21,201 bases of DNA from IMG/VR virus record IMGVR_UViG_3300049214_000082, positions 1 through 21,201 of that record. One strand, 5' to 3'. Both the position numbers and the translations under genes were made by a program. Within the stretch, counting starts at the first letter, position 1. Each line of letters starts with the position of its first letter. Positions 1,956-20,790 of this stretch are shown piece after piece. The notes under the pieces are model-generated. The model was not told the DNA's origin, made no database searches, and was given only the letters and a program-made list of their open reading frames with translations. Source of the stretch: a virus.

Positions 1956-2483
1956 ATGGACGCCACTACCGTAGCGCTGCTCCAGCCCCTCGAAGAGGCG
2001 CTCGTCAGCGCGGCTGCCGCCGGTGTGCTTGCCGGCGCTGGCGCCATCACCTACTGGGCGCAGAAGCACTTCGCCTTCGCCCGCACGGCGGCCGCCAGGT
2101 CCATCGAGGCGAATGCGAACGCCGTGCTTCAGTCAGCGACCCAGAACGCCGCCGGTGACATCGTGAAGGGCATCAAGGACGGCTCGATCGACCTGAACAA
2201 CGCCGCCGGCATCCGCAGCGCCGCCGAGGCGGCCGCGCGCACCGTGGCGCTGAAGGTGCCGGACGCGCTCGACACGCTCCAGCCAGGCCTCACCACCCTG
2301 GCGGATATGGTCGTGCAGAAGGCGCATCTGGCCATGGCCCCCACGATCGTCAGCGGCCTGGTCAGCGCCGGGCTCCAGGCGGCGGCCAGGCCGGCCGAGG
2401 GCATGGCGCAGGACGCGGTGGATCGGTTGGTAAGCCTGGGGCTCGGCAACCCGGCCACAGGCGTGCTGGCGACGCCACGATGA
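1956..2483 (+). CDS. Ala-rich protein with N-terminal membrane segment
   Basis: A 175-residue, alanine-rich, mostly helical protein with one long hydrophobic segment near the N-terminus (about residues 15-34, small-residue rich with Gly), ending in YWAQKHF. The rest alternates amphipathic helices and a second, weaker hydrophobic stretch (about residues 128-150). It could be a holin/antiholin-type or internal virion protein; the family is not recognisable. It is the third membrane-associated gene of the left operon. A one-mismatch copy of the dispersed dyad (1964-1976) lies within codons 3-7 and encodes ATTVA. The stop overlaps the next start in ATGA (2480-2483). Confidence 0.7.
   Translation: MDATTVALLQPLEEALVSAAAAGVLAGAGAITYWAQKHFAFARTAAARSIEANANAVLQSATQNAAGDIVKGIKDGSIDLNNAAGIRSAAEAAARTVALKVPDALDTLQPGLTTLADMVVQKAHLAMAPTIVSGLVSAGLQAAARPAEGMAQDAVDRLVSLGLGNPATGVLATPR
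1964..1976. repeat. dispersed dyad, one mismatch (CACTACCGTAGCG)
   Basis: Matches the consensus CACTAC-S-GTAGTG at 12 of 13 positions. It starts eight bases after the first base of the 175-aa gene and is read in the frame Thr-Thr-Val-Ala. Confidence 0.6.
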
Positions 2484-2623
2484 AGAAGCCCAGCCAGGCC
2501 ATGCGCGACAAGGCCGACAAGACGATGGACGCCAAACTCGGCATCAAGGAGAACTCGCCGAAGGACCGGAAGATCGACAAGCTCGACGGCGCCAGGCCCC
2601 GGAAGCCCAAGGGCGGGAAGTGA
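2480..2623 (+). CDS. 47-residue Lys-rich small protein
   Basis: ATG 2480 overlaps the preceding stop (ATGA) and the frame runs to TGA at 2621-2623, which in turn overlaps the next GTG start (2620). The product is highly charged (MKKPSQAMRDKADKTMDAKL at the start, RPRKPKGGK at the end) and probably disordered or a single helix. No family is recognised. The double coupling to both neighbours and the steady codon pattern argue that it is real despite its size. Confidence 0.6.
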   Translation: MKKPSQAMRDKADKTMDAKLGIKENSPKDRKIDKLDGARPRKPKGGK

Positions 2624-2970
2624 GCACGGCGCCGGACCCGCGCTGCCGGATCGGGAAGGTTACGCCGAAGTCGAACGTCGTGCCGATTTGGAGCGGGATC
2701 AACCACAGCATTCCTGTAACGCCCCCAGGGGTTCTGGACCTGGCAGAGAGGGTGCTGCGCCGTGCGCAACGGGGGGAGCTTACGTGCCTCGCTGTCGCTG
2801 CGATGACTGCCGGCAACGCCAGTTTCTATGCGTTCGATGACGGGCGCGCGCATCCGGTAGCGGCGATCGGCTCTGTGCGGGTGCTGGAAGCGCACATGAT
2901 CGATAGGTGGAACCATTACCACACGGCGAGCGATCCTCGTATCGGCGAACCGCCCGACGAGGGCGCATAG
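2620..2970 (+). CDS. hypothetical phage protein, last gene of the left operon
   Basis: A 116-residue protein with GTG start coupled to the upstream stop (GTGA, 2620-2623). The middle has a helix (LDLAERVLRRAQRGELTCLA) followed by VAAMTAGNASFYAFDDGRA, and a C-terminal segment ending in LEAHMIDRWNHYHTASD. The pattern, an alpha helix leading into short strands, suggests a small folded domain, but I recognise no family or active site. It is followed by a 140-base intergenic region carrying inverted repeats and an intrinsic terminator, so it probably ends the transcription unit. Confidence 0.6.
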   Translation: MSTAPDPRCRIGKVTPKSNVVPIWSGINHSIPVTPPGVLDLAERVLRRAQRGELTCLAVAAMTAGNASFYAFDDGRAHPVAAIGSVRVLEAHMIDRWNHYHTASDPRIGEPPDEGA

Positions 2971-3020
2971 TTACGTAATCGTAAGTTGCGCGCACTGCCG
3001 TAGTGCCTTATGCAGGCACT
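2971..3020. promoter_or_regulatory. cluster of inverted repeats in the intergenic region
   Basis: Directly after the stop at 2970 comes TTACG-TAAT-CGTAA (2971-2984), then the dyad CACTGCCGTAGTG (2993-3005), whose right half overlaps a third inverted repeat, AGTGCCT-TATGC-AGGCACT (3002-3020). No T-tract follows, so these are not terminators in themselves. They read as stacked protein-binding sites or overlapping RNA hairpins. Confidence 0.5.
2993..3005. repeat. dispersed dyad, one mismatch (CACTGCCGTAGTG), intergenic
   Basis: Twelve of 13 positions match the consensus; the flanking G and C extend the symmetry by one base each side. It lies in non-coding DNA, so its conservation cannot be due to a peptide. 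Confidence 0.6.
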
Positions 3021-19982: not shown

Positions 19983-20776
19983 TGGCGAACGCGCCGACGC
20001 CAAACCCGCATGTCCCGTCGATCACGCAGCAGCCGACGCCGGACCCAGGCGCCCTCGCCTACCTCATGCGGCCGATCATCCAGGGCCTTCGCAGCCTGGC
20101 CGGGCAGACTGGCGGCCCGCTCGACCGGGCGGCGACCTGGAGCGATCTGGTGCGCCTGGGCGTGGCGTCGGAGGCGGCGCTTCAGTCCTCGCAGGGCCAG
20201 TCCCAGATCGCACCCGCTGCGACCACGCTCAGCCTGACGAGTGCCGGGCTGGCTTCTGAGACGACGGCCCGCATCGCCGGCGACCAGACCAATGCGACGG
20301 CGATCGCCGCGGAGACCTCGCGCGCTGAAACGGCCGAAGCCGCGATCGTAGCCTCCCTCGCCGGCACGGCGACGAGCGCCGGTTTGGCTGCGGAAACGAC
20401 GGCGCGGATGGCCGCCGATACCTCGCTGGCCACCAACCTGGCGGCGGAAGCGGCTACGCGCGGTGGCGCAGACACCACCTTGACCACCAATCTCGCGACC
20501 GAAGTAGCCACTCGCGCAAGCGCTGATACGATCCTACAGAACAATATTAACGCCCTGCCTCATAAATTTGCTGGCAACATTGGCGACGGCACGACGCTCA
20601 TTTACCCTGTGGCGCATAACCTCGGGCGCCAGGATGTCCTGACGCAGGTGTTCCTGTCAGCCTCGCCGTTCACCCAGGTCGCGTGCTCGGTTGCGAACAC
20701 CGATGCGAACCACGTCACGGTCACTTTCGCCTCAGCACCGGCGGCTAATGCAGCGCGGGTTATCGTCATCGGCTAG
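19982..20776 (+). CDS. coiled-coil tail fibre with C-terminal beta domain
   Basis: A 264-residue protein. Residues ~1-60 form a small N-terminal domain (PHVPSITQQPTPDPGALAYL). From about 90 to 190 it is an Ala/Thr-rich repeat, with A-E-T-T-A-R-(I/M)-A-x-D recurring and A-A-E-x-A-T-R variants, typical of trimeric coiled coils in phage fibres. The C-terminal ~70 residues (GDGTTLIYPVAHNLGRQDVL to FASAPAANAARVIVIG) are a known type of small phage beta domain with an H-N-L-G strand turn and a final hydrophobic strand. It is likely a short side or tail fibre. ATG 19982 overlaps the preceding stop. Confidence 0.75.
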   Translation: MANAPTPNPHVPSITQQPTPDPGALAYLMRPIIQGLRSLAGQTGGPLDRAATWSDLVRLGVASEAALQSSQGQSQIAPAATTLSLTSAGLASETTARIAGDQTNATAIAAETSRAETAEAAIVASLAGTATSAGLAAETTARMAADTSLATNLAAEAATRGGADTTLTTNLATEVATRASADTILQNNINALPHKFAGNIGDGTTLIYPVAHNLGRQDVLTQVFLSASPFTQVACSVANTDANHVTVTFASAPAANAARVIVIG

Positions 20777-20777
20777 G

Positions 20778-20790
20778 AACTACCGTAGTG
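20778..20790. repeat. dispersed dyad, one mismatch (AACTACCGTAGTG), over a start codon
   Basis: Twelve of 13 positions match. It begins two bases after the fibre stop codon and its last three bases are the likely GTG start (20788) of the acetyltransferase gene; AGGA (20775-20778) touches its left edge. A protein bound here, or RNA pairing, could affect initiation. Confidence 0.6.

Follow-up and report, generated by a model that had tools for sequence, protein, structure and literature searches.

What does a short inverted repeat do when it recurs, inside genes and between them, along a phage genome? The question is raised by IMG/VR virus record IMGVR_UViG_3300049214_000082, a fragment of 21,201 bases that we analysed whole and call the window, in which a first-pass annotation had marked the 13-base dyad CACTAC-S-GTAGTG at eight places and read it as a dispersed site of a dimeric DNA-binding protein. 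On balance we consider it probable that the dyads serve as operators, scattered over the genome, for a dedicated regulator that the phage encodes and that would bind them as a symmetric dimer in a stoperator-like manner, and the leading candidate for this regulator is a protein family termed cl59. At the level of sequence, the dispersed-site reading is supported by a phage-wide network of such sites, their absence from the host part of one prophage-bearing contig, some conserved site positions and a candidate gene.

All eight coordinates and mismatch counts proved correct on recheck, with four perfect copies, three with one mismatch and one with two (Table 1); two further places with three mismatches (18085 and 18905) are at the chance level. 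With up to three mismatches allowed, 10 matches are seen against 3.1 expected, a number reached in none of 100 dinucleotide shuffles. A codon-preserving null of 200 trials, in which synonymous codons were shuffled per gene and intergenic bases were shuffled as well, gave on average 0.015 perfect, 0.285 one-mismatch and 1.41 two-mismatch copies, and no trial gave four perfect copies, seven with at most one mismatch or eight with at most two. The claim of a copy number beyond chance is thus borne out, and chance is an unlikely origin of the dyads. Among the odd palindromes with six-base arms in the window, CACTAC-S-GTAGTG alone recurs, and 12 others occur once each. Five copies lie inside open reading frames (ORFs) and three between genes, the mixture that had been described. 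The five genic copies share one reading frame, in which they specify Thr-Thr-Val-(Val/Ala) within unrelated proteins; because the other three copies are non-coding, it is the DNA that recurs and not a peptide.

The wider family was sampled through the best 80 of at least 599 IMG/VR matches to the window's capsid protein, plus 40 ATPase matches. A long set of 24 records of at least 45 kb was fetched whole (G001, G002, G004-G008, G010, G011, G013-G016, G018, G025, G029-G036 and W01, which is the phage RHph_TM3_14A; the 48-kb L162 and others stand outside it), with G011 analysed over 60,000 of its 61,106 bases; treating these 24 as independent is generous. Relatives were screened for over-represented dyads with no preset sequence, by a strict perfect-arm search plus looser searches. 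A dispersed dyad of this type is found in 21 of the 24 long records, mostly spelled differently from that of the window. Three long records (G010, G011 and G016) gave no such dyad, nor did the looser searches find one in G017, G020, G022, L152, L156 or L163. The strict search returned perfect dyads in 26 records, the most frequent of them reaching up to 20 copies in real genomes against 1-3 in shuffled ones; enrichment over shuffles holds for the window and 14 relatives. The repeats of G001, G003, G004, G005 and G012 were missed by the strict search and revealed by the looser ones. Site thresholds vary by genome and the site counts depend on them; long records have about 2-12 sites in every 10 kb, and both early and late genes contain them.

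Each phage thus tends to have a spelling of its own. CACTAC-S-GTAGTG is the dyad of the window and G019, TTACTCC-n-GGAGTAA of G006, G030 and G037, TCCCTAC-n-GTAGGGA of G018, TTGCTAC-n-GTAGCAA of G015, TTCCCGAC-n-GTCGGGAA of G026 and G027, CCACTAGCTAGTGG of G007, and GTTACCT-n4-AGGTAAC of RHph_TM3_14A, which together with G013 has a TTAC-n-GTAA class of dyad with a 4-base spacer. The half-site common to the spellings often ends in ACTAC beside a short spacer, and GCACTACSGTAGTGC is present in 17 viral stretches. In 25 whole records the window's spelling occurs mainly in G008 (10 copies), G012 (11), G014 (12) and G019 (6), against 0 or 1 for a control pattern. The enrichment in relatives over shuffles that the first-pass annotation had proposed to look for was therefore found, with a phage-specific consensus in most long genomes. 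It had also named loss of the copies in close relatives as an outcome that would count against it; here the spelling is indeed often lost, but the dyad system stays. The two nearest capsids (80% identity) illustrate this: a 53-kb relative has TTACTAC-n-GTAGTAA copies in place of the window's spelling, and a 9-kb fragment (L006) keeps that spelling in one perfect and one two-mismatch copy.

The sites are not spread evenly over genes and their borders. In 17 records including the window, 163 of 299 sites fall at gene boundaries, positions that cover 8-27% of each genome. Gene calls in the relatives came from a simple caller with uncertain start positions, and the caller missed the window ORF at 13654-14019, so that the copy at 13785 was scored as a boundary site. 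Scored on the annotation deposited for RHph_TM3_14A, 23 of 36 sites are boundary sites against 15% expected (P about 4e-11). We also asked whether the matching spot in relatives has a site no more than 60 nt away. At the spot 3' of the capsid gene (10584) this was so in 15 of 28 relatives when measured from the capsid gene and in 7 of 27 when measured from the next gene, and at the spot of 8687 in 8 of 27, in each case against 1.5 expected. The spot of 20778 has a site in 1 of 14 relatives, and no site was near the homologous place for the terL spot 4192 (0 of 29), for 17916 (0 of 10) or for 2993 (0 of 1). Some site positions are conserved and others turn over.

An integrated member of the family shows where the network ends. 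On a 170-kb contig of Bradyrhizobium sp. 139 (L240, L264), the first 25 kb hold 25 sites, next to early genes of the window's phage family, and the other 145 kb hold none; the last site lies inside a large serine-recombinase gene, after which host genes follow. This is an integrated prophage of the window's family, and the sites stop at its edge, which adjoins host methyltransferase and polyprenyl synthetase genes. The remainder of this prophage probably lies on another contig of the strain, which has the host gene glyS on one side and, starting at base 28,005, late genes together with more sites. Bradyrhizobium genosp. SA-3 has a 60.6-kb contig with 24 sites, and its 19 pieces matching RHph_TM3_14A are scattered along most of the contig and permuted in order. 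Exact GTTACC-n6-GGTAAC occurs at three places in the genome of Bradyrhizobium sp. 139, all within the two phage-bearing contigs (1 for the backwards control), and at none in that of genosp. SA-3, whose phage contig has only other variants. CACTACSGTAGTG occurs nowhere in three genomes, one of which holds the contig L227, whose copies have another centre base. A host-encoded partner was rejected on this confinement of exact GTTACC-n6-GGTAAC to phage-bearing contigs and the lack of CACTACSGTAGTG in the three genomes. L227 itself, a 17-kb contig whose host label comes from its bin alone (a Betaproteobacteria metagenome-assembled genome), carries 14 CACTAC-n-GTAGTG copies at up to two mismatches.

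Which phage protein might read the sites? As the first-pass annotation had claimed, the cognate gene does not appear to lie in the window, where no regulator gene was recognised; the candidate is found in the early region of relatives. The family cl59 consists of fast-evolving proteins of about 270-380 residues by ORF, encoded at or near the head of the early operon. It is present in 18 of the 21 long dyad-bearing records and in none of the three without the dyad. The dyad-bearing records that lack it are G005, W01 and G013, and the early region of G005 may be missing, because its DNA polymerase ORF begins at the record edge. Of 23 cl59 genes, 17 have a site near the start, where density predicts 2.0; this is the highest value of 36 families, which together have a site near the start in 177 of 824 cases against 63.9 expected; a manual count puts a site between -100 and +132 of the ORF start in 20 of 24 cl59 genes. 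The more two phages differ in cl59, the more their sites tend to differ as well (rho 0.475 over 22 records, P 0.002, the minimum obtainable from 500 permutations), and this correlation of distances ranks first among 34 rows, or 32 distinct families, two rows being duplicates of cl59 and cl40; the test omits W01, G013, L185, G003 and records with fewer than eight sites. For comparison, rho is 0.015 for the capsid, 0.23 for TerL, 0.04 for cl40 and 0.338 for the adjacent early gene cl55. When the mean of the other families is controlled for, the cl59 correlation is 0.40 (P 0.001), and much of the signal is held by windows around residues 83-122 and 135-164. An AlphaFold2 model of cl59 is all-helical (mean pLDDT 88.6). 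From its presence, the site at its start and its co-divergence with the sites, cl59 is the leading candidate for the partner. The shared length of cl59 and its site also suggest that L147 and G015 probably belong to the same phage group.

In the branch of RHph_TM3_14A, the slot of cl59 is taken by a protein of the EVB41_028 type, with a site beginning 22-39 bases 5' of the ORF start in four of four cases. The idea that EVB41_028 is a distant cl59 was rejected, as hhalign finds no relation between them. EVB41_045, a double helix-turn-helix (HTH) protein, was dropped as a partner because no relatives of it were found.

If the dyads are operators of such a regulator, a protein bound at the site at the early-operon head would shut the early promoter, and we propose that the regulator would thereby control its own synthesis. 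The remaining sites, found at gene ends above chance and also inside genes, would be road-blocks silencing transcription genome-wide, as stoperators do. Site and protein would drift together, which would give each phage its own spelling, and each phage probably also forms its own immunity group. A further reading, which we hold only tentatively and think rather less likely to be right than wrong, is that a DNA-binding protein of an unrecognised all-helical fold marks the whole genome at symmetric sites about every 1-5 kb, the spellings of site and protein shifting in step between phages, in temperate and apparently non-temperate members; this would be a self-marking system for silencing or organising the genome and not the usual lysogeny repressor. 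The family is common in IMG/VR and most long genomes have their own version; it thus offers a natural panel in which sites are paired with candidate proteins, and the divergence of immunity specificities and whole-genome silencing or organising can be tested pair by pair. Should cl59 truly bind DNA, it could be a new kind of DNA-binding fold. The papers that a stoperator search of the open-licence literature gave are mostly on actinobacterial phages. In the same literature we recognised nothing on dyads in the window's phage family, which does not show that none is in print; the terms HMO-2011, TM3 and stoperator do not occur in the available part of PMC10783043.

Several observations weigh against a cl59-based operator network. 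About 45% of the sites (136 of 299 in the 17 records) lie deep inside genes, a class of position that accounts for 73-92% of each genome. Only 14 of the 80 capsid-matched loci contain the spelling of the window at up to one mismatch. Four of the 24 cl59 genes have no site near the start (G032, G006, G033 and L170). Other families also reach P 0.002 in the co-divergence test (f17 at 0.351, f23 at 0.343, f20 at 0.321 and f1 at 0.294), and in a window-wise comparison that left out one duplicate (f25), one 30-residue window of cl55 reaches 0.574 against 0.552 for the best cl59 window. The cl59 model matches no known DNA-binding fold, with a best Foldseek E of 0.92 in the PDB and 2.2 among viral models, and in a second-look structure comparison the best Z was 5.4, to an unrelated helical protein; the absent matches do not show a new fold. 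Finally, among the 21 long records with the dyad, 13 (G001, G005, G006, G007, G013, G014, G029-G034 and W01) have no match to a tyrosine integrase, a serine recombinase or ParA, so that a lysogeny role is hypothetical for these 13. A tyrosine integrase at E<=0.001 is present in 10 of 38 records (8 over cut-off), four of the ten being without a dyad. A serine recombinase is matched in none of 31 records and is present in the Bradyrhizobium prophage.

These 13 records leave room for a role in lytic growth or in genome organisation. The bound protein could thus act early in the lytic cycle, as a Cro-like or nucleoid-like factor unrelated to lysogeny that coats the genome or sets its timing while infection proceeds; we regard this as unlikely but deserving of weight. 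It would suit the lack of integrase, recombinase and ParA matches, RHph_TM3_14A included, the place of cl59 at or near the early-operon head and the presence of sites in early and late genes. Spacing more even than random (P<0.05) in 4 of 14 records (G008, G002, G009 and G000; the window is among them, at 0.047) also fits, but it is not significant in the other 10, and the dyads are kept in a serine-recombinase prophage and in five or six integrase-bearing long records.

The same network might instead be served by a partner other than cl59, which we likewise hold to be doubtful; the proteins considered are a small ribbon-helix-helix (RHH) protein, the MarR-like cl40, a Cro/CI-type protein and cl55. 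RHH-like genes occur in G006, G007, G014, G015, G018, G025 and G030, but these are only 7 of the 24 long records and the assignment is weak (best Pfam E about 0.08). A MarR-type winged helix is predicted for cl40 (Foldseek E 1.5e-3), yet cl40 occurs in the dyad-less G010 and G011, is missing from several dyad carriers and shows no co-variation with the sites. The XRE gene of G008 begins 60 bases beyond the first base of a perfect site, but its relatives among the records searched amount to one at E 4e-5 (G015) and one at 0.024. On patchy presence, weak assignment or lack of co-variation, RHH, cl40 and XRE were rejected as family-wide partners. As for cl55, 16 of 24 genes have a site near the start and one window of the protein correlates well, but its whole-protein co-variation is lower than that of cl59.

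That the dyads are dispersed centromere or partition sites for a ParB-like protein, one of the precedents the first-pass annotation had offered, is very unlikely. ParA is followed by a small gene in G002 (RHH-like, E 3.6e-11) and in G004 (weakly RHH-like), no other cl59-bearing long record has as many sites as these two (56 and 41), and a related Photobacterium phage-plasmid has ParA as well. ParA is nevertheless found in only 2 of the 24 long records (a pattern-based search gave three records, G002, G004 and G021), and unlike parS sites the dyads do not cluster near a par locus or origin but are genome-wide and equally present without ParA, and the idea was dropped. Hairpin promoters for an N4-like virion RNA polymerase, or RNA-hairpin terminators, are scarcely credible and were dropped: CACTACSGTAGTG can be drawn with a 3-base loop and many relatives encode a giant protein, but N4-type promoters need a genome-encoded virion RNA polymerase, the giant protein of RHph_TM3_14A (the one relative whose protein was checked) matches inorganic pyrophosphatase and has no polymerase domain, one site of that phage (12719-12734) exactly spans the gap between two converging genes, spacer length varies among phages and genes on either strand contain sites.

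How, then, does the proposed operator network compare with known ones? Cluster A mycobacteriophages (L5, Bxb1 and Trixie) carry many short stoperators genome-wide, at gene junctions and early promoters, with a motif that varies among relatives and correlates with repressor distance, and they use an integrase or ParABS, according to two reports (PMC9283540, PMC6550527); in L5 the sites are asymmetric 13-mers bound by a monomer, and orientation matters (PMC9283540). The numbers are alike, as L5 has more than 20 copies and the 21 long dyad-bearing relatives carry 12-56 sites, 14 of them at least 20, with 8 in the window; the motif here diverges with cl59, a candidate for the cognate repressor. 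In contrast to the stoperators, the dyads of the window and relatives are symmetric with a phage-dependent spacer (the consensuses of the looser searches were symmetrised and are not counted as evidence of this), nearly half of the sites lie deep inside genes despite the excess at boundaries, most long members have no integrase or ParA match, and for the candidate protein no similarity to HTH proteins was found. By analogy the dyads may work like stoperators without belonging to that group, from which we keep them apart because they are symmetric.

Two other systems had been named as precedents. The c repressor of phage phiC31 binds symmetric inverted repeats dispersed over the phage genome, and the dyads resemble these in being symmetric and dispersed, but phiC31 belongs to another host group, and the spelling here shifts from phage to phage within one family. 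The C1 operators of phage P1 are dispersed sites of one repressor in a proteobacterial phage, as the dyads would be, but they are asymmetric.

Table 1. Dyad copies and marker genes in the window; positions are those of the 21,201-base record.
Feature	Position	Strand	Location or match
Dyad copy CACTACCGTAGCG, 1 mismatch	1964..1976		Genic, 8 bases inside start of ORF 1956-2483
Dyad copy CACTGCCGTAGTG, 1 mismatch	2993..3005		Intergenic, between ORF 2620-2970 and terL
Terminase large subunit (terL)	3112..4539	-	phrog_2, E 3.6e-16
Perfect dyad CACTACGGTAGTG	4192..4204		Genic, inside terL (minus strand)
Perfect dyad	8687..8699		Genic, inside ORF 8550-9590
Major capsid protein, query for relatives	9599..10558	+	phrog_267, E 7.1e-58
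Weak copy CACTAGCGTAGAG, 2 mismatches	10584..10596		Intergenic, immediately 3' of major capsid gene
Perfect dyad	13785..13797		Genic, inside ORF 13654-14019
Perfect dyad CACTACCGTAGTG	17916..17928		Genic, inside ORF 17836-18180
Dyad copy AACTACCGTAGTG, 1 mismatch	20778..20790		Intergenic, abuts stop of ORF 19982-20776

The window encodes terL, portal-like, capsid, tail-fibre and internal virion genes; ORF 8550-9590 is assigned as scaffold by its position only, the matching PHROG having no function. By capsid, the nearest named phages are Rhizobium phages of the RHph_TM3_14A kind (59%), and since RHph_TM3_14A was isolated on Rhizobium, the family reaches rhizobia. A gene of this phage annotated as a putative integrase (L143:27240-30323) has DUF927 as its sole Pfam match, which makes the integrase label and the annotated att sites doubtful.

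A second dyad, TATAG-nnn-CTATA, is found in G010, G011, G016, G017, G015, G018, G025 and G029 (the records behind L110-L142 and L186-L192), and is mostly intergenic in G010, G015 and G018. All carriers except G016 have the winged-helix protein cl40, which could be the partner of this second dyad. G013 (L105-L107) has an abundant CCGGA/TCCGG repeat (69 against 3.4 expected).

The circular 60.5-kb Photobacterium damselae plasmid p2_510 (L245, L246) has a capsid 48.7% identical to that of the window, a tail-fibre gene and ParA, and is probably a phage-plasmid; it has a borderline repeat only (z 7.3), and a gene for a TonB siderophore receptor is present on it as well. A conserved early gene group that includes an ATPase (carriers of cl51, cl55 and cl52; L133:10086-12323 and others) has dyads at its junctions in many relatives, and in RHph_TM3_14A this group includes a gene annotated as a metallopeptidase.

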